Of a stretch of DNA of 64,000 nucleotides, positions 33,038-52,792 are shown in pieces. The notes below the pieces were generated by a model that ran no database searches, was not told the DNA's origin, and saw only the letters and a list, made by a program, of their open reading frames with translations. The stretch spans positions 157,637-221,636 of the forward strand of contig SVSI01000001.1 of NCBI GenBank assembly GCA_015064385.1, given 5' to 3'. The position numbers and the translations under genes were made by a program. The DNA is from Oscillospiraceae bacterium (GTDB lineage: Bacteria > Bacillota > Clostridia > Oscillospirales > CAG-272). Within the stretch, counting starts at the first letter, position 1. Each line of letters opens with the position of its first letter.

Positions 33038-33994
33038 TTAGTCAGATAGAACTCTATTTAATTCTGGTGAAATATCATTGACAATACAATTTCCAGATAA
33101 AACAGCAGAAAAACTAATTAAATTGCTTCTCTTTAATTTCTCAAATATATGATTTACAATAACTATTGGTATGTTATGTTTTTCAGCAATCTTATCACTA
33201 AAACGACATCCATTTGCAATTTCAATGGCAACTATTTTGAAAGTTATTTCATAATCATTATAGTTTGCTAATATGTAATTCTCTAATGATATAAAATTCA
33301 CATCTATAAATGGGTATGGATTTTCTCTACTCATTGTTTTTATACCACTAAAATAGCCTTTTCTATATAATATATCTATTGATGTTTTAAAATCTTCTTG
33401 GGTTATTCCAGATGCTGATACTTTATTATATAGTGAAGTTGTTGCTATGAGTTTTTCACTACCTTGTTCAATAGCAATTTTGCAGGCATTTTCAATAATC
33501 AAGTTATCAATATTATTTAATCCACCGATTCTTAACACTGGTTTATTAACATAAGCGGGAACTTTACCTAGTGCTGGTTTATCATTTATCCCTAAAATAC
33601 TATTTTTAATTCTTGAAAATGCTTCTTCATAATTATTAACATCTTTTATGGGTTCGTATAATGTGCTTTTCAAACACTCTGGGACTTCAACATTATCAAG
33701 TACTATTGGAACGATTTTTGTCTTATTGCTTATTCTCTTTACGATAGCGGTATTCAATTCTTCTCTAATCCAAGGCTTGCTTATGCTATTAGTAGATAAA
33801 ACAACAATAAAGGAATCAGCTTCTTTAATTCCTTCTTCAAAAATTTTATCAACTAATGAATCGCCAGGGAGCATTTCCCACTTATCTACCCAAGCATCTA
33901 TTCCATTATTTCTTAATTTTGTTGCAAACTCTAAAATAAATCTTTCCTTATCTTCGGTTGCGTGACTTATAAAGACTTTTGGATTTTCTTTCAT
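33038..33994 (-). CDS. TIR-domain protein, putative NADase effector of a defence module
   Basis: A 318-residue protein. Residues 5-120 form a TIR_2-type domain: PKVFISHATEDKERF, AWVDKWEMLPGDSL, then SKPWIREEL, where Glu79 fits the W-x-x-x-E position used for NAD+ cleavage in bacterial TIR effectors. The C-terminal 190 residues are helical with a winged-helix feel (ITQEDFKTSIDILYRKGYFSG; AEKHNIPIVIVNHIFEKLKRSNLI) and no named family. It is markedly AT-rich compared with flanking genes, which points to recent transfer. It is preceded by a ribbon-helix-helix gene in the same operon. Anti-phage function is inference from domain and context. Confidence 0.75.
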   Translation of the reverse strand: MKENPKVFISHATEDKERFILEFATKLRNNGIDAWVDKWEMLPGDSLVDKIFEEGIKEADSFIVVLSTNSISKPWIREELNTAIVKRISNKTKIVPIVLDNVEVPECLKSTLYEPIKDVNNYEEAFSRIKNSILGINDKPALGKVPAYVNKPVLRIGGLNNIDNLIIENACKIAIEQGSEKLIATTSLYNKVSASGITQEDFKTSIDILYRKGYFSGIKTMSRENPYPFIDVNFISLENYILANYNDYEITFKIVAIEIANGCRFSDKIAEKHNIPIVIVNHIFEKLKRSNLISFSAVLSGNCIVNDISPELNRVLSD

Positions 33995-37278: not shown

Positions 37279-38499
37279 TTATCTTATTCCGTAATTCTCG
37301 ATCACGTAGTCCATATCCTTATCGCCTCTGCCCGAGAGGTTAATGAGGATCGAGCCGTGGTCCATTCTCTTTGCGAGCTTCATTCCGTACGCTACCGCGT
37401 GCGAACTCTCGATAGCGGGAATGATACCCTCGAGGCGTGCGAGCTTGTAGAACGCGTCGATAGTCTCCTCGTCGTCGATAACGTCGTACTTGACTCTGCC
37501 GATATCCTGCAAAAATGCGTGCTCAGGACCGGACGAGGGGTAGTCGAGTCCGCTTGCCACCGAGTAAACGGGAGCGGGATCGCCGTTTTCGTCCTTGAGC
37601 ATTATCGAGTTGAAGCCGTGCATAATGCCTTCGCTGCCGTATTTGAGACTTGCCGCGTGATCTCCGAGATTCGGACCTCTGCCGAGGGGCTCAATGCCGT
37701 ATATATCAACGGGATCGTTCAGAAATCCTGCGAAAAGTCCTGCCGCGTTCGATCCGCCACCAACGCAAGCAACTATCGCCGTGGGGAGATGTCCGGTCAT
37801 ATTGATAAACTGTTCTCTCGCCTCGATTCCGACGACGCTCTGGAAGTCGCGCACCATCATAGGGAAGGGGTGCGGTCCGAGAACCGAGCCGATGCAGTAT
37901 ATCGAGTCCTTATATTCCTTACTGTATGCGTCAAACGCTGCGTCAACCGCTTCCTTGAGCGTCTGGAGTCCGTGAGTTACCTCGATAACGTTTGCACCGA
38001 GGATCTTCATTCTCGCGACGTTGGGTGCCTGCTTTTTGATATCGACCGAGCCCATATAAATATCGCACTCAAGTCCGAAATATGCCGCAGCCGTCGCAAG
38101 AGCAACGCCGTGCTGTCCTGCGCCCGTCTCTGCGATGACCTTCTTCTTACCCATATATTTTGCAAGAAGCGCTTCGCCCATACAGTGGTTGAGCTTGTGT
38201 GCGCCCGAATGGTTCAGATCCTCGCGCTTTGCGTAAAGCTGTACCTTTCCGCCGAGAGCGTCCGAAAGACGTTCAAGATGCGAAACGGGAGTCGGTCTGC
38301 CCTGAAACTCGGTACGTATTCTGCGAAGCTCGGCAATGAATTTTCTCGACTGTGCTATCGAGAAATACGCCTCGGTGATCTCTGCCATTGCGGCCTTGAG
38401 CTTATCCTCAATGTAAGCGCCGCCGTATTTGCCGAAATATCCGTCTTTGTCGGGATAGTTGTTAAAATAGGTGTCGAAATCGACGTTGTTTATCTTCAT
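37279..38499 (-). CDS. trpB: Tryptophan synthase beta chain, solitary, under a Trp T-box
   Basis: A 406-residue PLP enzyme joining indole and serine. The PLP lysine is Lys102 in [19 protein letters not shown] binds the PLP phosphate; [11 protein letters not shown] is at the end. It is a classical TrpB1-length protein. No trpA or other trp gene lies next to it: the gene is monocistronic, closed by a terminator at 37240-37271 and opened by a Trp-specific T-box. This suggests indole salvage or a scattered trp pathway. Confidence 0.95.
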
Positions 38500-38886
38500 A
38501 ATATATTTCCTCTCTTTATTTAAGACGTTATTTTTTTGATAGGGCAGGGAAGAGTCGCCATCGTTTTGTAAGCAGTATCATAAAAGCTCCTTAAAAATGA
38601 AAATCCTTGACAGAATGTGCTTCTGTCAAGGACGAATAAACACTTTTTAAGTCTTACTCGCGGTGCCACCTTGCTTGACGCGTTTTGCGCCCACCTTTTG
38701 AGATGCGTAACATCTCTTCTCTGTAACGGGAGAAGCCCGTCTTTGACTACCTTCGCGCGTGCGCTATCGCCAAAGCCCTCCGAAGTCCATTTACCGAGCC
38801 GCTTTCTGTCGGGATCACAGCATCCCCGACTCTCTGTGAGCGCGCTTCTCGATTTTATCTCTTCCTCAACGGTTTATCTTGAGTGC
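38500..38886 (-). ncRNA. T-box riboswitch, tryptophan-specific, upstream of trpB
   Basis: Read on the minus strand, the leader has a Stem I region with the CAGAGAG motif, a specifier codon UGG (38789-38787) followed by the conserved A, the T-box motif GGTGGCACCGCG (within 38672-38659) and a 12-bp terminator stem (38632-38621 with 38615-38604) followed by a T-rich stretch. Uncharged tRNA-Trp would pair with UGG and with the T-box bulge to form the antiterminator, switching trpB on when tryptophan is short. Confidence 0.93.
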
Positions 38887-39831: not shown

Positions 39832-39860
39832 TTGACATTTTTGCCCGTTTGTGCTATTAT
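39832..39860 (+). promoter_or_regulatory. Sigma-A promoter of the glycan-transport operon
   Basis: TTGACA at 39832-39837, 17-base spacer, TATTAT at 39855-39860, preceded by A-rich DNA. Confidence 0.88.
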
Positions 39861-40055: not shown

Positions 40056-43000
40056 ATGACCCGTTCGAAAAGAACTAAAATTCTGGCATTTTTCCTCGCC
40101 GTTCTGACTGTTATAGCCCCGTCAACCGCAGTTGCGGCCAAGGAGACTAACGATGCATATCAGTCAGCGTCCCTTTCCGATCTGCTCCGCCTCTCCAAAT
40201 ACGAGGATTATATGCTGGAGCATCAGAATGTCGGCTTCGGTGAGAAAAGTTACGTTCTTTCCTCTGATGATATCCTGAACTACAACGCGGATATCACGAA
40301 CGCGGAAGTCAGAGAAGAGTGTGTTGATGAAGAAAGGGGTATTAAGGGCCTCTACCTTCCCGCTACGGGAATCGTAGGTTGGAATATCCCCGAAGAAATG
40401 AAGGCGGGTATGTACGCCGTCAAATTCAAATACGTCCCTATCAAAGAGGAAATCTCGAAAACGACTTCCATTGAAAGAACGTTTTATATCAACGAGTCGG
40501 TTCCTTACTACGAAGCGCGTTACCTTTCCATTTCAAAGGTATGGGTGGATGACGTAAATTCGTATCAGAAGGATTCCGACGGTAACGTTATCTACCGTTA
40601 TCTCAACGCAGACGGAACGCTTGCTTTCGAATACGTTGATATAAACGGTAACGTGCTTGAGCGCGCAGTTGAAAACAGAGCACTCGTCTTTAAGAAGACG
40701 GGTGAGACCGTTTCGGCAGACGGATATCAGAAATATCCCGTTTTCGCAAACGATATAGACGGTAACGAATCCAAGCCGTCCAAATATATGGTCAACGAGC
40801 TCTGTACGTACGTTGCTACCGACTCCTCGGGATATCACATAGAACCCCTTCAGTTCTATTTCCCTGATGGAAACAACACGATCCAGCTCGAGGCACAGCG
40901 CGAAGCTATGGTCCTCGTGGGAGTTGAGATCTTCCCGTACGATTACGACAAGGAAGTAAAGTCCTTTGATGAATACGTAAAATACTGGCAGGACAACGGC
41001 GCCGCCGACGTTGCCGACTTCTACAAGAAGCTTCAGGCAGAGTATCCCGACGCTACGTCCGAGACCACGCTCTATCCCCTTGCGGACAGAACGAGCGCCA
41101 TATCGCAGCCCCAGTCTCCCTACATTCAGTACCTCAACGCTATCGGCGGTGACGGCGGTGATAAGTGGCAGAGCGCAGGACAGTGGGTACGCTATACCGT
41201 AGAGGTAGAGCAGGACGGATTTTACGAGATCGTTCTTCGTTACCGCCAGTCGGTAAACGAAGGTGCTTATTCCACCCGTGTGCTCAAGGTTGCTACCCAG
41301 AGCATGATAAACGAGGGAAAAGCGCCCGAGGCGCCTTTCAAAGAGGCAAACTACTTAAGATTTAATTATAAGGATACCTGGCAGGTCTCCGCGATAAACA
41401 GCGGAAGTGACGTCACCTACAAGGTATATCTTGAAAAGGGCAAGAACTATATCGAGCTCGAAGCGGGACTCGGAGATATGGCAGAGATACTTCTCGACGT
41501 TACCGACTCGCTCAACACGATAAACGACATCTATATCAAGTTCCTTATGATTACGGGATCTGATCCCGATAAATATCGCGACTATGACTTCTACAGCATC
41601 GTTCCGGACGAGGTAAACGGACTTCTCGTTCAGTCAGGTAAGCTTTACGCTCTTGCCGATAAGCTTCAGGCACAGGTTGGAAGCGGCGGTTCTTATACCG
41701 CAACCCTCCGTACCGTTGCTCAGCTCCTTGAGAGAATGGGTAAGAACGAGCACAATATTGCAGCGAACCTTGAAAACCTCAAGGAAAATCTCGGTACCAT
41801 CGGTACCTGGATCCAGAACGGAGCAAAGCAGCCCCTTGAGCTTGATTACATTATAGTCAGAACTCCTCAGGGCAACGACAATCTCCCCAAGGCGGAGGCA
41901 AACTTCTGGCAGTCGCTCTGGTTTGAGATCTGCCAGTTCTTCAGAAGCTTCGTTGCAGACTACAGCCAGCTTGGTGCTACCGTAGTGTCCGACCCCGACA
42001 ACAGAATAGTCGTATGGACCACTCTCGGACGTGACCAGGCGCAGGTTCTCAGAAGTCTTATCAACTCCGACTTCGCGAAGAATAATACGGAAGCAAACGT
42101 TGACCTAAAGCTCGTTGCGGGCGGCGCGCTGCTTCCTTCAGTTCTTGCAGGCGTCGGACCTGACGTATCGCACGGACACGGCTCGGGAGACGTTATCAAC
42201 TGGGCAATAAGAAGCGCGGTACAGCCGCTTGACGATTTCGAGGGATTTGACGAGCTTAAAGATGACTTTACCGAGGCGTCGTGGATCCCGATTACCCTGT
42301 ACAGTTTGAAGAAGGACGGCACCCGTTCCGAGACTACCTACGGTCTCCCCGAGGCGCTCGACTTCCCGATGATGTTCTACCGCGCGGACGTTCTTAACGA
42401 GCTCGGTCTTTCGGTTCCCAAGACGTGGAGCGAGATGGAGACGGTAATGGACACCCTTGGCGAGAACAACATGCAGATAGCTATTCCGACCTATATCGGC
42501 GGACACGATATCTTCCTTGCACAGATGGGTAAAGAGGTAGATAAGGGTGGAGAGTTCTGCGGAGTACGTTATATCAACGACGGTATGGAGATCGGTTACG
42601 ATACCGATACCGCTCTTGAGGCGTTCTCGTATCTTATGTCCTTCTTTACCGACCACGGTCAGCCGAAGCAGTACGACTTCGTAAACCGTTTCCGTACCGG
42701 TGAGATCCCGATCGGTATCATAGGATACTCGACTTATACTCAGCTTAGCATATTTGCTACCGAGATACAGGGACTTTGGGAATTCGTTCCGCTTCCCGGT
42801 TGGGAGACCTACAACGACGATGGAACGATATCGGTCAACAATAACGCTATCGGAACTACGACGGCAATAATTATGCTTGCCAACGAGGATCGCTCCGAGC
42901 ATCTCACGAACTTTGCATGGAAGTTTATGAAGTGGTACGTTTCGGAAAACACTCAGGCAAACTACGCTAACGAGCTTACCGCTCTCTTCGGAAGCGAATA

Positions 43001-43280
43001 CAAGTACCACACGGCAAACAACGCCGCACTTGAATCGCTTTCCTGGACGACCAGCGAATACAACAACCTTATGGCACAGATCGGAAGTCTTAAGGGAATC
43101 AGAGAGTACCCCGGCGGATACATCATCTCGCGTTATCTCAAGTTCGCGTTTGATGAGGTATATAACGACGGTGCAGAACCCGAAAAGGCACTCAGAGACT
43201 ACGTTCGTGATATCAATACCGAGATCACGAGAAAGCGCTCAGAGTTTGATCTTGCAGTCAAAGAGGTTACGTTTGGATAA
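40056..43280 (+). CDS. Giant extracellular solute-binding protein with N-terminal carbohydrate-binding-like region
   Basis: A 1074-residue secreted protein; ordinary family 1 solute-binding proteins have about 430. A signal peptide ends near AVAA (25-28). The N-terminal 600 residues include beta-sandwich stretches (WVRYTVEVEQDGFYEIVLRY near 374, and a similar GIVGWNIPEEMKAGMYAVKFKY near 110) like carbohydrate-binding modules. The substrate-binding fold begins near residue 650 (IVVWTTLGRDQAQVLRSLI) and ends with MKWYVSENTQ and the tail helix. GGAGG precedes the ATG at 40056. It leads a seven-gene operon with two permease pairs, so it probably delivers a large glycan or oligosaccharide to them. 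Confidence 0.85.
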   Translation: MTRSKRTKILAFFLAVLTVIAPSTAVAAKETNDAYQSASLSDLLRLSKYEDYMLEHQNVGFGEKSYVLSSDDILNYNADITNAEVREECVDEERGIKGLYLPATGIVGWNIPEEMKAGMYAVKFKYVPIKEEISKTTSIERTFYINESVPYYEARYLSISKVWVDDVNSYQKDSDGNVIYRYLNADGTLAFEYVDINGNVLERAVENRALVFKKTGETVSADGYQKYPVFANDIDGNESKPSKYMVNELCTYVATDSSGYHIEPLQFYFPDGNNTIQLEAQREAMVLVGVEIFPYDYDKEVKSFDEYVKYWQDNGAADVADFYKKLQAEYPDATSETTLYPLADRTSAISQPQSPYIQYLNAIGGDGGDKWQSAGQWVRYTVEVEQDGFYEIVLRYRQSVNEGAYSTRVLKVATQSMINEGKAPEAPFKEANYLRFNYKDTWQVSAINSGSDVTYKVYLEKGKNYIELEAGLGDMAEILLDVTDSLNTINDIYIKFLMITGSDPDKYRDYDFYSIVPDEVNGLLVQSGKLYALADKLQAQVGSGGSYTATLRTVAQLLERMGKNEHNIAANLENLKENLGTIGTWIQNGAKQPLELDYIIVRTPQGNDNLPKAEANFWQSLWFEICQFFRSFVADYSQLGATVVSDPDNRIVVWTTLGRDQAQVLRSLINSDFAKNNTEANVDLKLVAGGALLPSVLAGVGPDVSHGHGSGDVINWAIRSAVQPLDDFEGFDELKDDFTEASWIPITLYSLKKDGTRSETTYGLPEALDFPMMFYRADVLNELGLSVPKTWSEMETVMDTLGENNMQIAIPTYIGGHDIFLAQMGKEVDKGGEFCGVRYINDGMEIGYDTDTALEAFSYLMSFFTDHGQPKQYDFVNRFRTGEIPIGIIGYSTYTQLSIFATEIQGLWEFVPLPGWETYNDDGTISVNNNAIGTTTAIIMLANEDRSEHLTNFAWKFMKWYVSENTQANYANELTALFGSEYKYHTANNAALESLSWTTSEYNNLMAQIGSLKGIREYPGGYIISRYLKFAFDEVYNDGAEPEKALRDYVRDINTEITRKRSEFDLAVKEVTFG

Positions 43281-43326
43281 ATCCAAAACTAAATATCAGT
43301 AAACAACATTAAGGAGTGATCATAAA

Positions 43327-44292
43327 GTGTCAGCAAAAGTAAAGACACACTCCAATGATGAAGTTAAAAAGCCGGTCGCCAGAAAAGATCTTTCGAAAGC
43401 GGCGTGGACGTGGAAGGAAATGAAGAAAAATTGGGTAGCTTACGCAATGCTTGCTCCCTACTATATAGTTTTTCTTCTTTTCACCATCGTTCCGGTTATA
43501 GTATCATTGGTGTTAAGTTTCTTTGAATTTAATATGATAGAACCTCCTGTCTGGGTTGGTATCCAAAACTATACCAGACTCTTCCTCGCAGACGACCTGT
43601 TTGTAACTGCATGTAAGAACACGCTTATCTTTGCATCGATAATCGGTCCCGTTTCCTACATAATGTCATTCTGCGTGGCATGGTTCATCAATGAGCTCGG
43701 TCCCAAGCTCCGTGCGGTAGTAACGCTTATATTCTACGCACCTAACATCGGTGGATCTGTTTACCTTATCTGGAAGACGCTCTTCTCGAGTGACTCTTAC
43801 GGATACGTAAACGGTATTCTTCTCGATCTGGGAATCATTACGAAAGCGATCTCCTTCTTTGAGGACGCTAAGTACATTATGCCCCTTTGTATCGTCGTAG
43901 CCCTTTGGCTCTCGCTCGGTACGTCCTTCCTTAACTTCATTGCCGGACTTCAGGGCGTTGACCACTCGCTTTACGAGGCGGGCGCGGTTGACGGCATCTC
44001 GAACAGATGGCAGGAGCTTTGGTATATCACGCTTCCGTACATGAAGCCCCAGCTGCTTCTCAGTGCGGTACTCGCGATCACGCAGGCGTTCGGTTTCGGT
44101 CAGGTAGTTAACGACCTTTGCGGTAACCCCTCTACCGACTACGCGGCGTGGACGATAATGCACCACCTTGACGACTACGGCGGTGCGCGATTTGAGATAG
44201 GTTACGCTTCGGCTATCGCTACGGTACTGTTTATCGTAATGGTAGGAACTAACCAGCTCGTCAAAAAACTCTTATCGAAGGTGGGACAGTGA
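43327..44292 (+). CDS. ABC sugar transporter permease, MalF/UgpA type, GTG start
   Basis: A 321-residue inner-membrane permease of the CUT1 family with six helices. The ATPase-coupling EAA loop reads EAGAVDGISNRWQELWYITLPYMKP near residue 217. The first helix follows a basic, charged cytoplasmic lead of about 45 residues. The start is a GTG at 43327, with AAGGAG ahead. It pairs with the next gene, two bases away. Confidence 0.92.
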   Translation: MSAKVKTHSNDEVKKPVARKDLSKAAWTWKEMKKNWVAYAMLAPYYIVFLLFTIVPVIVSLVLSFFEFNMIEPPVWVGIQNYTRLFLADDLFVTACKNTLIFASIIGPVSYIMSFCVAWFINELGPKLRAVVTLIFYAPNIGGSVYLIWKTLFSSDSYGYVNGILLDLGIITKAISFFEDAKYIMPLCIVVALWLSLGTSFLNFIAGLQGVDHSLYEAGAVDGISNRWQELWYITLPYMKPQLLLSAVLAITQAFGFGQVVNDLCGNPSTDYAAWTIMHHLDDYGGARFEIGYASAIATVLFIVMVGTNQLVKKLLSKVGQ

Positions 44293-44293
44293 T

Positions 44294-45175
44294 ATGGCTA
44301 AAACACAGAAAATGAGAGTTAGAAAACACAGAGTCGTTCTCAACCGTTCGGTTGGAGGCGATACGGGAATATTCTTCTTCCTTGCAATAATGGGAATAGT
44401 AATGTTCCTCCCCATGCTTTACACGATAATGCAGTCGTTAAAGCCGCTTGACGAGCTTTGGTATTTCCCGCCGAAGTTCTACGTTATGAACCCGACTACC
44501 AAGAACTTCTCTGACCTCTTCAGACTTATGAGTCAGAGCTGGGTGCCCTTCTCGAGATACATATTCAACACCGTGCTCATCTCGGTAGGCGGTACCTTCG
44601 GTCACCTTATCCTTGCGGCTATGGCGGCTTACGTTCTTGCAAAGATCAAGTTCCCCGGAAGAAACTGGCTCTTCCAGACGGTCGTTCTTTCACTTATGTT
44701 CCATACGACCGTTGCATCCCTGTCGAAGTTCATCATTATGTCGGGAATCGGCATGATAGATACTATCTGGTCGATAATCATTCCCGCGTGGGGATCTTCG
44801 CTCGGACTTTACCTTATGAAGCAGTTTATGGAAAGCGCGGTAGCGGACGCAGTGCTCGAAAGCGCACGTATCGACGGTTGCCGCGAGTTCAAGACCTTCT
44901 GGGTAATTGCGATGCCTATGGTTAAGCCCGCTTGGCTTACCCTTATAATGTACTCGTTCAAGGACCTTTGGAACACGGGTAACGTTATTTACATTTACAG
45001 TGAGCAGCTCAAGACGCTCAACTACGCTATCAACCAGATCATAAGCGGCGGTATCACCCGTGCGGGTGCGGCTGCGGCTTCCACGGTCGTAATGATGGCA
45101 GTGCCGATCCTCGTATTCGTTGTCAGCCAGAGTAACATCATAGAGACGATGGGTACGTCGGGTATGAAGGACTAA
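44294..45175 (+). CDS. ABC sugar transporter permease, MalG/UgpE type
   Basis: A 293-residue CUT1 permease, partner of the previous one. EAA loop: ESARIDGCREFKTFWVIAMPMVKP near residue 194. The typical C-terminus TMGTSGMKD is present, close to the usual TGGAVKG. It starts two bases after the MalF-type stop, and the next gene starts ten bases later after a GGAGGT site. Confidence 0.92.
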   Translation: MAKTQKMRVRKHRVVLNRSVGGDTGIFFFLAIMGIVMFLPMLYTIMQSLKPLDELWYFPPKFYVMNPTTKNFSDLFRLMSQSWVPFSRYIFNTVLISVGGTFGHLILAAMAAYVLAKIKFPGRNWLFQTVVLSLMFHTTVASLSKFIIMSGIGMIDTIWSIIIPAWGSSLGLYLMKQFMESAVADAVLESARIDGCREFKTFWVIAMPMVKPAWLTLIMYSFKDLWNTGNVIYIYSEQLKTLNYAINQIISGGITRAGAAAASTVVMMAVPILVFVVSQSNIIETMGTSGMKD

Positions 45176-45185
45176 GGAGGTAGCG

Positions 45186-47363
45186 ATGAAAAAGAAAATC
45201 ACGTGTATAGCTGCTTTTCTGTGCTGCCTCATAATGCTTCTCGGTTCGTTTGGTGCTTACGCTGATACGTACACCTACAATATTGACGGAGAGCCCGTAA
45301 ACTCTCCCGATGCGTATCACGCGCACGCGCAGATAACTGCGACGCAGATGGGACTTAAAACCGCGCTTAAATATCCTTCGGACATTAAGACCGATAGCGA
45401 CGGCAACGTTTACATCGCGGATCCTGAGAACAGCAGAATAGTAGTTCTTGACAAAACTTACAAGTTAAAATTCGAAATCACAAAATTCACCAACGGCAAC
45501 GGCGTTGAAAACGACGCGCTGAAGGGTTGCCAGGGCGTTTTCGTATGGGAAGGTCTTGAGCCCACCGACGACGGCGGATATATAACTTCCAAATATATCT
45601 ACGTAGCGGACACCGAAAACAAGAGAATAGTAATATTCGACAAAGACGGCAAATATTTAAGACATCTCACTGCGCCCTCCTCGGACGTGTTCGACGAAGG
45701 CGAATCGTACAATCCTAAGGCAATCGCGGTCAGCGATTCGATGCGTATTTACGTAGTATGTACCTCAACTCATCAGGGTGTTATGACTCTGAACAATGAA
45801 GGTGAATTCTGCGGATACATCGGTGCTACAAAGGCAAAGTACAATCTCTTCCAAATGATCTGGAGAAATTTCCAGACTCAGGAACAGCTCGAACAGTCGG
45901 GCAAGGTGCTTTCCACCGCCTTCAATAATATCGTTATCGACGACGATGGATTCCTTTGGGTAACTACTAATACTATCGACGAAGCCGAAGCAAGCAAGGC
46001 GCTCAAAAACAAAAAGCCGGACTATGCAACGGTTAAGAAGATAAGTACCTCGGGTGACGACATAATGAAGCGTAACGGCTTCTTCGCACCTATGGGTGAG
46101 GTTCAGATCAATCTGTTCGTGGACGCAGCTTCCTCGCAGGGAGTTGTAACCGGAACTTCGAGTATCGTCAGCATAGCAATGGGCCCCGAGGGTACTTATT
46201 CGATCGTTGACGATAAGAGAAGTAAGATCTACACCTACAACGATCAGGGTGAGCTTCTCTTCGTGTTCGGAGACAAGGGCTCGCAGCTCGGAAGCATCAG
46301 TAAGGTTTCTTCAATAGCATATCAGGGCGATAAAATGCTCGTTCTCGACTCGCAGAACCACTCGTTTACGGTATTTACCCGCAACCAGTACGGCGATATG
46401 CTCATAAGAGCTATCAAGCATGACAACGAGCGCAGATACGACCTCTCCATCAGAGACTGGAACGATGTTCTTCAGAGAAACAATAACTTCGACGCGGCAT
46501 ACATCGGTCTCGGCGATGCTTATTACAGAAGCGGTGCGTTTGCGGAGGCGATGGAATACTATAAGGTAGCGTACGATACCGACGGATATTCGGACACCTT
46601 CCAGTACTGGAGAAAGAATTTTGTTGAACAGAATATTATTCTGATCATAATCGTTCCCGTTATTGCAATACTCCTTATCGGCTATCTCTTCAAGGTAGCA
46701 GGTAAGGTCAACAAGAAGGCAGCCCTTTCGGGACGCCGCAGAAGAACCTTTAAGGAAGAATTCTTCTATGGTTTCCACGTAATATTCCATCCGTTTGACG
46801 GATTCTGGGATCTTAAACACGAAAAACGCGGCTCATTGCGCGGAGCGTTTGCTTGGCTCGGACTTGCGGTACTCGTGTTTACCTATCAGGCAACCAGTGA
46901 AGCGTTCATCTTCAACCCCAGAGGTGCAATGACGAGCGTTGTTTCACAGATGCTCGGACTTATCGTTCCGCTCGTTCTGTGGACGGTTGCAAACTGGTGT
47001 ATTACCACACTCTTCAACGGTGAGGGAAGTCTTAAGGATATATTCATTGCAAGCTGCTACTGCCTTGCTCCGATAGTTCTTATAATCTTCCCGTCCACGC
47101 TTCTCACCTATTGTGTGACTGCAAGCGAAGCAACGTTCATAACGCTTATCGTTGCAATCTGCTACATCTGGCTCGGACTTCTTCTGTTCTGCTCCACGAT
47201 GGTAACGCACGATTACACCTTCAGTAAGAACATACTCACCGTTATCGTAACTATCGTAGGTATGGCGATCATCATGTTCATACTCGCACTCTTCTCGGGA
47301 CTCTTCGTGAAGATGGCAAGCTTCATAAGCAACATAATAACCGAAATTCAGTACCGTGCATAA
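45186..47363 (+). CDS. Secreted NHL-repeat / TPR / Yip1 membrane fusion protein
   Basis: A 725-residue protein. A signal peptide (1-26) leads to an extracellular NHL-type beta-propeller (about 50-415: SDGNVYIADPENSRIVVLD, YVADTENKRIVIFDKDGKYL, VDDKRSKIYTYNDQGELL). Then comes a short TPR pair (about 415-475), a membrane helix (about 481-501) and a Yip1 domain with five helices (about 525-715) starting EEFFYGFHVIFHPFDGFWDLK. The order means the propeller faces outside and the Yip1 part spans the membrane. In an ABC-importer operon it could sense or gate substrate entry; that is inference. Confidence 0.85.
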   Translation: MKKKITCIAAFLCCLIMLLGSFGAYADTYTYNIDGEPVNSPDAYHAHAQITATQMGLKTALKYPSDIKTDSDGNVYIADPENSRIVVLDKTYKLKFEITKFTNGNGVENDALKGCQGVFVWEGLEPTDDGGYITSKYIYVADTENKRIVIFDKDGKYLRHLTAPSSDVFDEGESYNPKAIAVSDSMRIYVVCTSTHQGVMTLNNEGEFCGYIGATKAKYNLFQMIWRNFQTQEQLEQSGKVLSTAFNNIVIDDDGFLWVTTNTIDEAEASKALKNKKPDYATVKKISTSGDDIMKRNGFFAPMGEVQINLFVDAASSQGVVTGTSSIVSIAMGPEGTYSIVDDKRSKIYTYNDQGELLFVFGDKGSQLGSISKVSSIAYQGDKMLVLDSQNHSFTVFTRNQYGDMLIRAIKHDNERRYDLSIRDWNDVLQRNNNFDAAYIGLGDAYYRSGAFAEAMEYYKVAYDTDGYSDTFQYWRKNFVEQNIILIIIVPVIAILLIGYLFKVAGKVNKKAALSGRRRRTFKEEFFYGFHVIFHPFDGFWDLKHEKRGSLRGAFAWLGLAVLVFTYQATSEAFIFNPRGAMTSVVSQMLGLIVPLVLWTVANWCITTLFNGEGSLKDIFIASCYCLAPIVLIIFPSTLLTYCVTASEATFITLIVAICYIWLGLLLFCSTMVTHDYTFSKNILTVIVTIVGMAIIMFILALFSGLFVKMASFISNIITEIQYRA

Positions 47364-47377
47364 GGAAAGGAGGAAAA

Positions 47378-50300
47378 ATGATGACTACTAAAAATACAAG
47401 AATTGCATCTTTGTTCATACTTATCTGTATGATCACTGCTATGTTTACATTTTTACTCCCCGTTTCCGCAGACAGCGCGGCACCGGAGACGGGCGAGGAG
47501 CTTCTCGCTACCGAGGAGATCCTTGCTACCTACCTTACCAAGGTATATAAGAACGAAAGAGCGAAGCTCGCAACGATGGAATATAAAAAGGCGAGCCCTA
47601 ACGGCAATTACCGTCTTTATATAGACTCACATTCGGGTGAGGTCGCAGTTGAATGCGTATCCACCGGCGAGATACTTCTTTCCAACCCTTACGATGCCGC
47701 AAGCGTCAAGAGTGAGGATATAAGAAAGCAACTCCTTTCTCAGGTCATTATCAATTTCCGTGACCTTGAGGATAACGGCAAGGAAAGACAGTTTATCAGC
47801 TATACCGATAGTGCTTTGTTCGGCCAGATCGACGTAAAGAACACTAAGACCGGTATTCGCGTTGAGTACGTACTCGGTAAAGAGTCCACACGTTCGCTCG
47901 TTCCCAGATGGATCGAGGCAACGAGATTCGAAGAGCAGATAATGGCTTATATCGATCCCGAAAAGAGCGTGGAGGAAGCTTACATCTACGACAAGCTCAT
48001 TTCTTACTATTCTCTTATCAATACCAACTCTGATAAAATATCGAGCGTAGCGGCAAAGGAATATGAAACCAAATATCCCTGTGTTGCAAAGCCGTATTAC
48101 ACGGAGGAGGTCAACATTGGTCTTATGGTAAACGATAAGGACACTGTTGGTCCCAATATAGTTTCGGGTGTTACCGGACTCAAAAAGGACAAAATGGCAA
48201 TATACGCTATCGACAGTGACGTTGAGTCCTCCGAGCAGGAGCTCAACCGCCTTGAGGGTTACATCAAGCGTTTCTGCCCCCACTATAACTTTGAAGAGGT
48301 CGTAAACGACCACGAGCTTACGGGTTATAAGGGATCTGCAAACCAGAACGCAGTATTCTATTTCTCAATAGAATATTCCATAACCAACGAAGGGCTCGTT
48401 GCCAGCGTTCCCGGCAACAGCATTACGTATGATGAGGAAAAATACAACCTCGATAATATTATCCTTCTTCCTTATATGGGCGCATCCAACGGAGCAAAGA
48501 ATGACGGTTACACCTTCATCCCCGACGGAAGCGGAACCATTATAAGAAACACGGATATAACCAAAGCCGGTTCTGCATATACGCTCACCGGTCAGGTTTA
48601 CGGTCCCGACTACGCTTATCACACTATAAATAAGCGTTGGGACGGAAAGAGCGAGGTATTCACCGCTCCCGTATTCGGCATCATCAACACTACGACTCAT
48701 ATCGAATATGGCGATCTTATTTCCCAAAGAGAGGAAATAGTCTATAAGCGTGATGAGAACGGAGAAATCGTTTATATCCCGGGTACAAACGACCCCGAGA
48801 TCGTTTACGTGTATGACAGTAACGGACGTCCGATGCAGTATCCTGACGGAAGCCCCGTTACCGAGACTGAGACCGTTTACGTTTACGAGGAGTTCAAGAG
48901 CACCTCGTCAAACGGCGTATTTGCAGTCATCACCGAGGGTGAAGCACTTGCATACATTACCTCCTCTCACGGAGGCGGACTCAGCCACAACTACAACACC
49001 GTATATGCAGAGTTCTATCCCAGATCGTCTGACTCGTACAACCTCGGAGACTCTATCTCGGTTGCGGGAAGCACTGAGTGGACGATCACCTCTGACAGAA
49101 AGTACACCGGTAGATTTACCGTAAAGTACATAATGCTCAGCGATAAAGAAAACTCCGCTTACGATGCAACTTACGTTGGAATGGCAAACGCTTACCGCGA
49201 TCACCTCGTCTCAAACGGATTTATCAGTAAGATAGACGATGCAAAGCAGAATATTCCGCTTTACCTTGAGACCTTCGGTATGATCGAGGTCCAGGAGATG
49301 ATAATGACCATCCCCACATGGGTCGATACACCTCTTTCTACGTTCGAGGACGTTGAAAAGATGTACGGTGCTCTTGCCGAGGCAAATATCGACAACGTTA
49401 AGTTTAAGCTGACCGGCTTCACAGAGGGCGGTTGGAAATCAAGTCTTGCTCCCAGCACCGTCAAGTTTGAAAAGGTTCTCGGCGGCAAGGACGGATACAA
49501 CACACTTGTTGAAAATGCAGAAAAGACGAACGGACTCCTTGAGGTGTTCCCCGACTTCGATTTTGCAAACGTAAATACCACGAAGTTCTTTGATAAATTC
49601 AGCCAAAACAAAGACGTAGCAAGAACGGTTGACGACCGTTATGCGGGTAAGAGAGAGTACACCTCTATATACCAGACCTTCCAGTACACGGGCTCTGTAT
49701 GTGTGTCTCCCGCATCTTACGAAAAGATCTACGAACACTTTGAAAAGGCAATGAGAAAGTTTAACAAGGGCGGTATTTCGGTATCCACGCTGGGTAGCGA
49801 CGTTAACACAGACTTCAATGAGGATAATCCGCTCAACAGAGAGGACGGCAAGGGCTACACTGTAGAGCTCCTGTCCAAGCTGAAGAGCCAGTATTCCAGC
49901 GGAGTTATGGTGAGCCAGGGTAATGCATACGCTTGGCCCTATGCGTCACACATTCTTAACGTAGCGCTCGAGGGAAGTAACTACATCCGTACCAGCGAGA
50001 GCATCCCCTTTATAGGAATGGTTCTCCACGGATATATCAACATTGCGGGCTCGCCCACAAATATGCAGGGTAATATCGAGCACGAAATGCTGAAGATAAT
50101 CGAAAACGGCGCATCCCCCTACTACGTTCTCGTAATGCAGAACTCCTCGCTTCTTAAGGAATATTTCCAGTATTCCGATTATTATTCGATCGACTTTGAA
50201 AACTGGAAGAGCGACGTTATAGAGACCTATAACACGATAAACAAGGCACTTTATGACGTTCAGACGGCACAGGTAGTTGATCACAAGTTTGTGATCGGCG

Positions 50301-50677
50301 AAAGAGTGCTTGACGAAAGCGAACAGAGCGAGAGAGATGCAAGCTACGAAAAGCAGCTTGCAGCTTATAAGGCAGGTCGCGAAGAAGCTTTTGAGATATA
50401 TCTGAAAGAGCTTGCAAAAGCAGAAGAGAAGAAGCAGGCAGCCATCGCTGCAGGCGAAGACTATACCGAGGAGATCGCTCCTTTCGAGTATAAGGAATTC
50501 GTCTATACCGATTCGGTATATACTGCTGTGGACGATAACACTATCGTTTATATGGAGTACGAAAACGGAATAAGCTTCGTTCTCAACTACAACCTGTTCG
50601 ATACAAGAGTCGAGGTGGACGGAGTCACCTACGAGGTTGACGCTATGTCGTTCATCAAGATCTACCCCACTAAGTGA
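47378..50677 (+). CDS. Secreted DUF5696 family protein, likely glycan-active
   Basis: A 1099-residue secreted protein with an N-terminal signal (to about residue 32, VSAD). The main body matches the DUF5696 family of Paenibacillaceae and Clostridia: an N-terminal beta region, a beta-sandwich middle, then a TIM-barrel-like part (residues about 620-930, with DVEKMYGALAEANIDNVKFKL, LLEVFPDFDFANV, and GISVSTLGSDVN). A charged coiled segment rich in E/K/A (about 985-1030) precedes a closing beta domain. The family always sits beside sugar ABC transporters and is suspected to be a glycoside hydrolase; no activity has been recalled. GGAGG precedes the start; a second ATG follows at once. Confidence 0.8.
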   Translation: MMTTKNTRIASLFILICMITAMFTFLLPVSADSAAPETGEELLATEEILATYLTKVYKNERAKLATMEYKKASPNGNYRLYIDSHSGEVAVECVSTGEILLSNPYDAASVKSEDIRKQLLSQVIINFRDLEDNGKERQFISYTDSALFGQIDVKNTKTGIRVEYVLGKESTRSLVPRWIEATRFEEQIMAYIDPEKSVEEAYIYDKLISYYSLINTNSDKISSVAAKEYETKYPCVAKPYYTEEVNIGLMVNDKDTVGPNIVSGVTGLKKDKMAIYAIDSDVESSEQELNRLEGYIKRFCPHYNFEEVVNDHELTGYKGSANQNAVFYFSIEYSITNEGLVASVPGNSITYDEEKYNLDNIILLPYMGASNGAKNDGYTFIPDGSGTIIRNTDITKAGSAYTLTGQVYGPDYAYHTINKRWDGKSEVFTAPVFGIINTTTHIEYGDLISQREEIVYKRDENGEIVYIPGTNDPEIVYVYDSNGRPMQYPDGSPVTETETVYVYEEFKSTSSNGVFAVITEGEALAYITSSHGGGLSHNYNTVYAEFYPRSSDSYNLGDSISVAGSTEWTITSDRKYTGRFTVKYIMLSDKENSAYDATYVGMANAYRDHLVSNGFISKIDDAKQNIPLYLETFGMIEVQEMIMTIPTWVDTPLSTFEDVEKMYGALAEANIDNVKFKLTGFTEGGWKSSLAPSTVKFEKVLGGKDGYNTLVENAEKTNGLLEVFPDFDFANVNTTKFFDKFSQNKDVARTVDDRYAGKREYTSIYQTFQYTGSVCVSPASYEKIYEHFEKAMRKFNKGGISVSTLGSDVNTDFNEDNPLNREDGKGYTVELLSKLKSQYSSGVMVSQGNAYAWPYASHILNVALEGSNYIRTSESIPFIGMVLHGYINIAGSPTNMQGNIEHEMLKIIENGASPYYVLVMQNSSLLKEYFQYSDYYSIDFENWKSDVIETYNTINKALYDVQTAQVVDHKFVIGERVLDESEQSERDASYEKQLAAYKAGREEAFEIYLKELAKAEEKKQAAIAAGEDYTEEIAPFEYKEFVYTDSVYTAVDDNTIVYMEYENGISFVLNYNLFDTRVEVDGVTYEVDAMSFIKIYPTK

Positions 50678-50694
50678 GAAAGGAGAGACGTAAA

Positions 50695-51651
50695 ATGAGT
50701 AAAACAAAAGTAAATACCAATGGCTCTCCTATAAAGAAGCCGAAAAAGGCGATCTCGCTTGAAAGAAAGAAATCCCGTGCCGGCTGGCTGTTTATTCTTC
50801 CGTTCCTTATCGGTCTTATACTTATATACATTCCGATGATAGTAAACTCGGTAAATATCAGCTTCAGCGACTATCGAGGATTCGAGCTTCATCCGGTTGG
50901 ATGGGAAAACTACCAGGTAGCTCTTATGGAGGATCCTGATTTCGTTCAGGTTCTCAGAGACGGACTTCTCAGTATGCTTCTGAATATCCCCGCGATAGTA
51001 TTTCTTTCGCTCTTCCTTGCCATTCTTCTTAACCAAAAGATGGTAGGACGTGCGGCGTTCAGAGCAATACTCTTCGTGCCCGTTATTCTTTCTACCGGTC
51101 TTATCGACAGTCTCGATGCAGCCAACTCCACGATGCTTAACTATATGGGAAGCAACGAAGGCGTTGATACGGGTGCTGTCGGAGAATCTGCGGCAAACGA
51201 GATCATCTCGGCAGCAGACATCTCGGTTCTTTTCTCGAATATGAAGGTCGGTACCGGACTCGTTACCTATATAACCCGTCTCGTTAACAATATTTATAAT
51301 ATCGTTAACGATGCAGGCGTTCAGATACTTATCTTCCTTGCAGGACTTCAGTCGATATCTCCCGCGATTTACGAATCGTGCGATATAGACGGAGCAACCG
51401 CGTGGGAGACCTTCTGGAAGGTAACCTTCCCGATGATCAGCCCTATGATCCTTGTAAACACCGTTTATACGGTCATAGACTCGTTCACCAAGGCGGACAA
51501 CTCGGTAATGGCGTTCATAGTAAACTATGAATCACGATCCAGAACCGTCGCAACCGCGATGGCGTGGGTATATTTCCTTATAGTTGCCCTGATCGTTGTT
51601 GTAGTTGCAGCTCTGATAAAGACGTTCGTCTTCTATCAGAGAAGAGACTGA
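50695..51651 (+). CDS. ABC sugar transporter permease, MalF/UgpA type (second pair)
   Basis: A 318-residue CUT1 permease, only distantly like the first MalF-type gene. EAA loop ESCDIDGATAWETFWKVTFPMISP near residue 224. It has a large periplasmic insertion of about 60 residues (about 140-200: SLDAANSTMLNYMGSNEGVDTG...), which is longer than usual and may contact the binding protein. The start at 50695 follows AAAGGAG. It belongs to the same operon as the genes before. Confidence 0.9.
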   Translation: MSKTKVNTNGSPIKKPKKAISLERKKSRAGWLFILPFLIGLILIYIPMIVNSVNISFSDYRGFELHPVGWENYQVALMEDPDFVQVLRDGLLSMLLNIPAIVFLSLFLAILLNQKMVGRAAFRAILFVPVILSTGLIDSLDAANSTMLNYMGSNEGVDTGAVGESAANEIISAADISVLFSNMKVGTGLVTYITRLVNNIYNIVNDAGVQILIFLAGLQSISPAIYESCDIDGATAWETFWKVTFPMISPMILVNTVYTVIDSFTKADNSVMAFIVNYESRSRTVATAMAWVYFLIVALIVVVVAALIKTFVFYQRRD

Positions 51652-51667
51652 GTGGAGGTGAAAAGAT

Positions 51668-52708
51668 ATGAATTCTGCTAAAAACACTCCAAAAGTTCTT
51701 AAAGAAACCAAGGGCAAGATTCAGGTGGATTTCGACAGAACCTCCAAGTGGACTAAGTTCAAGATCAAATATCTCTCAACGAGATTCCTTACACAGACGA
51801 TATTCAAGCTTTTCCGCACCATAATTCTTCTCGGAATGTGCTACATAATACTCAATCCCTTCTTCTCGAAGATCGCGACCTCGTTTATGAGCCCCGAGGA
51901 CTTTATGGACGTTACGGTAAAGTACATCCCCAAGCACGCAACGCTTGATACCTATAAGCAGCTCATTACGGAAAACGAGTATTTCCGTTGTGTATTCAAC
52001 ACCGGAATACTTTCACTTGCATGTGCGTTTATACAGACCTTCGTTTGTAGCTTGGTAGGATACGGATTTGCAAAGTATAAGTTCAGAGGAAGCGGAATAC
52101 TCTTCGCTATGGTTATGATCACCCTTATGGTGCCTCCTCAAACGATAGAGTTCTCACTCTTCCTTATGTTCAACGACTTCAATCCGTACGGAATTTTTGA
52201 GATGATCGGCATAGCCGAAGAGTCTCGCCGTCTCCTTGATACGGTATGGCCCTTCATTATCCTTTCGCTCACAGGTCTCGGCCTTAAGAACGGTCTTTAC
52301 ATCTTTATGATGAGACAGTTCTACCGCGGAGTTCCCGACGAGCTTGAGGAATCTGCATACATCGACGGATCGGGTCCTGTAAAGACCTTCTTCAAGATCA
52401 TACTCCCGATATCGATTCCGATGATGATAACGATATTCCTCTTCTCGTTCTCCTGGCAGTGGACTGATAACTTCTACACGCAGCTCTTCTACACGAGTAA
52501 CACGAGCAGCCACGTTCTTGCGTACTTCGCAGAGGTACCTAACAGTATGCTCAAGGCGATAGAGGATTCGGGCGTTGACCGCGTGCTCTACGAACAGTCG
52601 GTAATGCATACCTGCGGACTTCTTATTATTGCTCCGCTTATCCTTATCTATCTGTTCTGTCAGAGATACCTCATTCAGGGTATCGAGCGCTCGGGTATCA
52701 CCGGCTAA
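51668..52708 (+). CDS. ABC sugar transporter permease, MalG/UgpE type (second pair)
   Basis: A 346-residue CUT1 permease with a cytoplasmic lead of about 45 residues and six helices. EAA loop EESAYIDGSGPVKTFFKIILPISIP near residue 235; C-terminus FCQRYLIQGIERSGITG. GGAGGTGA precedes the start, 16 bases after the previous stop. It is the last gene of the operon; no ATPase gene is encoded, so a shared MsmX/UgpC-type ATPase from elsewhere is expected. Confidence 0.92.
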   Translation: MNSAKNTPKVLKETKGKIQVDFDRTSKWTKFKIKYLSTRFLTQTIFKLFRTIILLGMCYIILNPFFSKIATSFMSPEDFMDVTVKYIPKHATLDTYKQLITENEYFRCVFNTGILSLACAFIQTFVCSLVGYGFAKYKFRGSGILFAMVMITLMVPPQTIEFSLFLMFNDFNPYGIFEMIGIAEESRRLLDTVWPFIILSLTGLGLKNGLYIFMMRQFYRGVPDELEESAYIDGSGPVKTFFKIILPISIPMMITIFLFSFSWQWTDNFYTQLFYTSNTSSHVLAYFAEVPNSMLKAIEDSGVDRVLYEQSVMHTCGLLIIAPLILIYLFCQRYLIQGIERSGITG

Positions 52709-52716
52709 TCAAAATA

Positions 52717-52754
52717 AAAAACGGAATATGCCATTTTCGGCATATTCCGTTTTT
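52717..52754 (+). terminator. Intrinsic terminator of the glycan-transport operon
   Basis: A perfect 16-bp stem (52717-52732 with 52739-52754), 6-base loop, ending in T5. Confidence 0.93.
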
Positions 52755-52763
52755 GTTTGCCGC

Positions 52764-52792
52764 TTGACACGGGCGGCTTTTTTATGTATAAT
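52764..52792 (+). promoter_or_regulatory. Sigma-A promoter of cca
   Basis: TTGACA at 52764-52769, 17-base spacer, TATAAT at 52787-52792. Confidence 0.9.

Follow-up and report, generated by a model that had tools for sequence, protein, structure and literature searches.

How does an operon with two pairs of permeases, a single solute-binding protein (SBP) and two large proteins of no familiar transport function serve the cell that carries it? The question is raised by seven genes at positions 40056-52708 of a 64,000-nucleotide stretch of the Oscillospiraceae bacterium contig SVSI01000001.1 (hereafter the window, meaning the whole stretch analysed). They encode a giant SBP, a first permease pair (pA1 and pB1), a protein joining an NHL propeller and TPR repeats to a Yip1 domain, a protein of the DUF5696 family and a second permease pair (pA2 and pB2). 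Our analysis indicates that these genes constitute one conserved carbohydrate-import unit, which is well supported and which we doubt much less than the mechanistic details. A fuller interpretation, which we hold with about as much belief as doubt, is that the operon specifies a dedicated carbohydrate-uptake machine, comprising a dual importer of the CUT1 family, a receptor made from a dead glycosidase and an assembly hub built on Yip1.

Organization and conservation of the operon

All seven open reading frames (ORFs) lie on the + strand, in the order SBP, pA1, pB1, NHL-TPR-Yip1, DUF5696, pA2 and pB2, and the original prediction had their start, end and gene assignments right (ORFs and Pfam). 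The intergenic gaps are, in order, 46, 1, 10, 14, about 17 and 16 bases, the fifth of which takes ATG 50695 and not GTG 50674 as the start of pA2. Upstream lies a promoter-like site, TTGACA-17-TATTAT with a TG extension (39832..39860, + strand), which agrees with 11 of 12 consensus positions, a consensus match and not proof of a promoter. It is separated by a leader of about 190 nt from the SBP gene, whose ATG at 40056 follows a strong Shine-Dalgarno sequence. The set is closed by a terminator-like hairpin with a 17-bp stem (52717..52754), and the gene for CCA-adding enzyme downstream has its own promoter-like site (52764-52792). Judged from these sequence signals, the promoter-like site, Shine-Dalgarno sequence and hairpin bound a single transcription unit, and the set is one operon.

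Conservation was studied in 44 DUF5696 loci, picked by DUF5696 match and kinship and blind to their neighbours (42 from Clostridia genomes, one from a Butyrivibrio plasmid and one from a Paenibacillus plasmid, so that breadth outside Clostridia rests on the one Paenibacillus record). Completeness was scored on ORFs called without a greedy filter, because long antisense ORFs shadow genes. In 43 of the loci the set was complete, with neither order nor strand changed; the remaining one runs into the end of a contig. The median intergenic gap was 12 bases. Full-length DUF5696 was detected in 65 of 291 Clostridia-class genomes and the N-terminal region of the SBP in 63, every one within the 65; the two DUF5696 genomes that have no such region are metagenome-assembled genomes of 73-75% completeness. 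The SBP was found on the same strand, 4.7-8.7 kb upstream of DUF5696, at 72 of 84 places; the other 12 are mostly on different contigs of genomes also holding an unpaired SBP. The cassette is close to an obligate unit, carried by about 22% of the sampled Clostridia species (n = 291), and its arrangement is far beyond chance. The original prediction had suggested an undescribed import system and proposed a survey of co-occurrence; the middle genes do travel with the transporters (43 of 44 loci, 63 of 65 genomes), and the claim of a conserved system stands. Mere chance neighbourhood of the middle genes was rejected on the fixed order and the co-occurrence across the 291 genomes.

The seven families have also diverged together. 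Their distance matrices are all correlated (Mantel r 0.76-0.95), with none of 500 shuffles matching any observed value. The tightest block consists of Yip1, DUF5696, pA2 and pB2 (r 0.92-0.95) and a second one of SBP, pA1 and pB1 (r 0.84-0.94). Where a genome has several cassettes, the copies differ in all seven parts together; one sampled relative carries six DUF5696 copies. Since paralogous cassettes also diverge together, the co-divergence is only partly due to species descent. Mean identities among the 44 loci are 29% for DUF5696 and 36% for the SBP against 53% for pA1, a contrast that fits surface proteins carrying specificity.

Two irregular copies were observed. One of them (G247:C1:744354-746003), from among the 12 DUF5696 places that have no SBP at that upstream distance, is interrupted by an internal TGA and lies in a genome of one contig where no SBP gene is close to it; it is a decaying cassette. 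In the other (L094 5513-8746), about 3.2 kb lies between the Yip1 gene and a DUF5696 gene that is shortened. This stretch has two ORFs on the opposite strand (263 and 498 aa) and is probably an insertion disrupting one of the three cassettes of that genome.

One binding protein and two permease pairs

The giant SBP (40056..43280, + strand; 1074 aa from ATG 40056) was assigned by Pfam, profile, AlphaFold and Foldseek. Pfam SBP_bac_8 spans only residues 725-989 of the 1089-aa ORF. In the AlphaFold model (pLDDT 85.7, pTM 0.80), a signal or anchor helix is followed by predicted beta-sandwiches at about 100-308 and at 336-486, a helical bundle at 490-605, a strongly amphipathic helix around 631-648 and a predicted MalE-like oligosaccharide-binding domain at about 660-1078. 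Foldseek matched this last domain to the oligosaccharide SBPs 5ci5, 3uor and 5ysb; a sugar-type SBP domain is present. By profile, the 336-486 sandwich matches residues 409-520 of cycloisomaltooligosaccharide glucanotransferase (5x7g, E 4e-8). We take that stretch of 5x7g to be a CBM35, and the label CBM35-like used for the sandwich has this basis; the Pfam scan gave no CBM35 match in the SBP. A lipobox-like motif occurs in only 3 of the 44 SBPs and 3 of the 44 DUF5696 proteins, and many of these proteins have an N-terminal hydrophobic helix with no obvious cleavage site, so both are likely anchored by the uncleaved helix or by partners.

The first pair comprises MalF-like pA1 (43327..44292, +) and MalG-like pB1 (44294..45175, +), both with an intact EAA loop (Pfam, models and alignment). 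The second comprises MalF-like pA2 (50695..51651, +), whose ORF opens with GTG 50674 but has its better ribosome-binding site ahead of ATG 50695, and MalG-like pB2 (51668..52708, +; Pfam and alignment). BPD_transp_1 of Pfam matches all four, two of them slightly below cut-off, and the UgpA, UgpE, MalF and MalG models also match all four with scores well under the equivalog cut-offs. The pairs are diverged, with identities of 24% between pA1 and pA2 and 33% between pB1 and pB2 over the aligned part. Nevertheless, the EAA-loop residues E, G and P show 88-100% conservation in the cassette alignments of all four permeases, the second pair included.

No ATPase gene was found within the seven-gene operon. 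Elsewhere in the same genome there is a single orphan ATPase of MsmK type, along with a single PotA-like one, and an ATPase gene annotated as ugpC lies directly upstream of the Paenibacillus cassette. Orphan multitask ATPases that power several sugar importers are established (PMC7658222), and by analogy the MsmK-type ATPase encoded elsewhere in the genome is probably the motor of both pairs.

A single SBP had been proposed to serve both pairs, and this claim holds in part. In this genome the remaining SBP_bac_1 and SBP_bac_8 proteins sit beside other permeases, so pair 2 is left here with no evident SBP of its own. In general the claim fails, as about a quarter of the loci add an ordinary SBP gene (about 360-510 aa): directly after pB2 in ten loci, further downstream in Paenibacillus (two genes) and upstream in one locus (L086). 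These genes lend some weight to the alternative that two ordinary CUT1 importers share the operon, pair 1 using the giant SBP and pair 2 an SBP encoded elsewhere, with NHL-TPR-Yip1 and DUF5696 accessory to pair 2 only. The mild split of the co-divergence into SBP-pA1-pB1 and Yip1-DUF5696-pA2-pB2 blocks agrees with it. Nevertheless, neither block occurs alone in the 291 genomes, contig breaks and decayed copies aside, the correlations across the blocks are still 0.76-0.90, and no free SBP_bac_1 or SBP_bac_8 protein is left for pair 2 in this genome. We therefore regard two separate importers as unlikely, and favour one import unit with two permease pairs.

Fold and catalytic positions of the DUF5696 protein

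The DUF5696 protein (47378..50677, + strand) has a (beta/alpha)8 fold like that of GH129 and GH101 and is predicted to be non-catalytic (Pfam, profile, AlphaFold and Foldseek). Its Pfam match is strong (E 4e-133). While phmmer with the single window protein against PDB gave nothing useful, a 37-sequence DUF5696 profile matched the 3,6-anhydro-D-galactosidase DagB (5opq/8rzg, E 1e-9) and the GH129 enzyme NagBb (5wzn, E 5e-8). The AlphaFold model (mean pLDDT 85.5, pTM 0.78), predicted from an alignment that left out two plasmid-derived rows, was matched by Foldseek to DagB 5opq (E 1.5e-26, target TM 0.69), NagBb 5wzn (TM 0.71) and then GH101. The model and the profile thus agree in assigning the window protein a GH129/GH101-like overall fold.

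A direct comparison of the profile with a single GH129 sequence aligned the C-terminus only, and free-standing relatives were therefore used as a bridge. These are proteins of 560-680 aa that also carry the Pfam label DUF5696. Their alignment to the profile of the cassette proteins has an hhalign probability of 100 (E 1e-40), and NagBb can be aligned to the greater part of their length (E 1e-148). Counted along the alignments, the Asp and Glu that never vary in the 11 free-standing relatives fall on NagBb Asp435 and Glu478, and the Glu also on DagB Glu517. We take Glu478, as numbered by position count, to be the second catalytic acid of NagBb. In the window protein these columns hold Thr804 (codon 49787..49789, + strand; the catalytic Asp position, Asp435 in NagBb and Asp486 in DagB) and Ser846 (codon 49913..49915, + strand; the second catalytic acid position, the column of NagBb Glu478 and DagB Glu517). 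Among 69 cassette copies the first column has Thr in 29, Asp in 15, Ser in 9 and others in the rest, and the second has Asp in 16, Ser in 15, Asn in 11, Glu in 9 and others in the rest. Asp and Glu occur jointly in none of the 69, against 11 of 11 free-standing relatives. Arg821 (codon 49838..49840, + strand) is invariant in all 69. Identity between the cassette proteins and DagB or NagBb is about 9-10%, a level that leaves some risk in the alignment, although the conserved flanking Arg anchors the catalytic region.

The original prediction had an active enzyme that would trim the glycan, once captured, ahead of import. On its side are the fold matches to GH129, DagB and GH101, the nucleophile Asp kept in 15 of 69 copies, the invariant Arg821 and the nearly invariant Glu909. 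DagB offers a further point: its Asp486 corresponds to NagBb Asp435, mutation of Asp486, Glu517, Glu531 or Asp202 inactivates it, and it needs further acidic residues, one of them supplied by a second monomer (PMC5698469). However, the cassette proteins lack the joint Asp and Glu of the free-standing relatives, and the only other carboxylates kept in at least about 88% of copies, Asp383 (Asp or Glu), Asp411 and Glu909, are off the catalytic columns. The column-by-column comparison of catalytic positions downgraded the ordinary active glycosidase, which we now consider improbable. Because the window copy lacks both catalytic acids and none of the 69 has the two together, the protein is most likely a glycosidase fold kept for glycan binding, not for trimming. 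Of the surface complex predicted to bind and trim a glycan, capture is probably right and trimming is not supported.

The Pfam family DUF5696 mixes the cassette proteins with the free-standing GH129-like proteins (L106-L121), which keep both catalytic acids and, by their sequences, look like uncharacterised active glycosidases.

The NHL-TPR-Yip1 protein

The middle gene at 45186..47363 (+ strand) encodes, in one 725-aa protein, an NHL beta-propeller with TPR (Pfam), a membrane helix at about 484-502 and a C-terminal multi-span Yip1 domain (PF04893, E 4.6e-12, residues 530-699), with clustered hydrophobic segments at 584-701. The NHL and TPR part is predicted to be extracellular. Two genes lying side by side encode NHL and Yip1 in 11 of the 44 loci, and nearly all others have a fusion, which suggests that the two act together. 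In Bacillus, the Yip1 protein YknW modulates the assembly of YknXYZ, an efflux pump, through a composite interface (PMC4887032), and bacteriocin clusters are another place where Yip1 and ABC genes occur together (PMC10707071). It is literally true that Yip1 has no known role in import, but YknW shows that a Yip1 protein can act in an ABC complex. By analogy with YknW, NHL-TPR-Yip1 may be an assembly hub.

The original prediction named the propeller-Yip1 protein a possible gate or sensor. The propeller-TPR-membrane architecture would also suit sensing, and histidine kinase, response-regulator (two-component) or AraC regulator genes flank some cassettes. It is nonetheless slightly more doubtful than an active glycosidase that pair 2, NHL-TPR-Yip1 and DUF5696 form a glycan sensor or gate signalling the arrival of substrate and no second transporter, since the EAA coupling loops of pA2 and pB2 are intact, as in ATP-driven transporters, and there is no signalling domain within the seven genes.

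Neighbouring genes and candidate substrates

Flanking genes in lineages outside the family of the window include GH10 beside GH9, GH26 with CBM35 beside GH130, GH43 with a xylosidase C-terminal domain, GH3, GH5, esterases and extra SBPs. The xylanase, mannanase and cellulase neighbours point to plant-wall glycans, xylan and mannan among them, for those copies. The least probable of the alternatives, that the substrate is a polymer of the cell's own surface or another solute and the operon recycles envelope glycans, would suit the window's genus, where the operon adjoins the housekeeping CCA-adding enzyme gene and no degradative genes were recognised beside it, yet it fits poorly with the xylanase, mannanase, mannosyl-phosphorylase, cellulase and xylosidase genes next to the cassettes of other lineages and with the several cassettes per genome that differ in all parts, as for different food glycans.

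In Paenibacillus cellulosilyticus (L105 15544-24767), the cassette is followed by two extra SBPs and by several genes for flavin-dependent oxidoreductases, an unexpected setting for a sugar importer.

Other features were seen elsewhere in the window. The Rfam scan of the window gave no family at its gathering score; a T-box leader (38625-38878, - strand) reached 85.9 bits, just below the gathering score of 93. It precedes a TrpB-like gene (37279-38499, - strand), and a terminator-like hairpin lies at 38603-38633. A TIR-domain protein (33038-33994, - strand) is a possible defence gene, and a 785-aa protein (16012-18369, + strand) has the unusual pairing of a phage-lysozyme domain with leucine-rich repeats.

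Proposed mechanism

The unit, its conservation, the predicted folds and the apparent loss of catalytic residues can be regarded as established from sequences and models, and the mechanism is what we infer from them. The CBM-like modules of the SBP and the dead-glycosidase barrel would hold oligosaccharide chains at the membrane. The binding domain of the giant SBP would feed permease pair 1, and DUF5696, or an extra SBP in some species, would present glycan to pair 2. NHL-TPR-Yip1 may hold the parts together, as YknW promotes assembly of another ABC complex, and a multitask MsmK-type ATPase from elsewhere in the genome would power both pairs. In its most specific form, which we put forward only tentatively, the system would be a novel class of Gram-positive glycan importer: the two permease pairs form one complex through the propeller-TPR-Yip1 hub, the dead glycosidase is a receptor or chain guide, and long or branched fragments are handed to either channel.

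Several points weigh against this picture. Physical contact among the proteins is presumed, and how an SBP and a DUF5696 protein that are not lipoproteins stay cell-bound is a guess. Some lineages have an ordinary SBP beside pair 2, as would suit two transporters that are only loosely linked. The 15 of 69 DUF5696 copies that keep the nucleophile Asp could belong to cassettes that retain or re-invent activity, and DagB shows by analogy that additional acidic residues of the fold can matter. Finally, there is no glycan-degrading enzyme or regulator next to the operon of the window (TrpB upstream, CCA-adding enzyme downstream).

If the proposal is true, the cassette is a major uncharacterised uptake route for complex plant or host glycans in gut and rumen Firmicutes, and an ABC importer whose architecture combines two permease pairs with a pseudo-glycosidase receptor. 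It would also give a function to the DUF5696 family and suggest one for bacterial Yip1 domains. The cassettes beside GH10, GH26 or GH130 genes yield substrate predictions.

Comparison with known systems

The open-licence literature searched had no mention of DUF5696 and nothing on the system under Yip1 with NHL or Yip1 with SBP, which is not proof of absence. The core is a CUT1 importer, a known kind of system, while no described counterpart was found for the doubled permeases, the pseudo-glycosidase and the propeller-Yip1 hub. Like the CUT1 importers with multitask ATPases (MalEFGK, MsmEFGK and YtcPQ-YteP/MsmX of B. subtilis), the cassette has a MalE-like domain and MalF/MalG-like permeases with EAA loops, its operon has no ATPase gene and the genome has an orphan MsmK-type ATPase. 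Those importers have a single permease pair and a single SBP in each operon; the cassette has two diverged pairs and one SBP in 43 loci. Its SBP is over double the usual size, carries predicted CBM-like modules and, in 41 of 44 cases, lacks a lipobox; two extra proteins, NHL-TPR-Yip1 and DUF5696, are obligatory.

The cassette DUF5696 protein resembles NagBb (GH129 alpha-N-acetylgalactosaminidase), DagB and the GH101 endo-alpha-GalNAcase in its N-terminal sandwich, barrel and C-terminal beta domain, but differs from them in lacking a joint catalytic Asp and Glu and in being always inside a transporter operon. As in YknWXYZ of Bacillus, a Yip1-family membrane protein is encoded with ABC transporter genes, and YknW is needed by its complex; however, YknWXYZ is a MacAB-like efflux pump, while the cassette Yip1 is fused to NHL and TPR and stands alongside importer-type permeases.

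The cassette elsewhere adjoins GH10, GH26, GH130, GH43, GH9 and GH3 genes and AraC regulators, like Gram-positive polysaccharide utilization loci. Unlike such loci, the operon of the window has no adjacent degradative enzyme or regulator, and the seven-gene core is independent of the neighbouring enzymes. With the Sus systems of Bacteroidetes homology is not expected, there is no outer membrane or TonB-dependent porin on the cassette side, and the parallel would be one of working principle only: several non-enzymatic surface glycan binders, such as the SusE- and SusF-like proteins, serve one import route.

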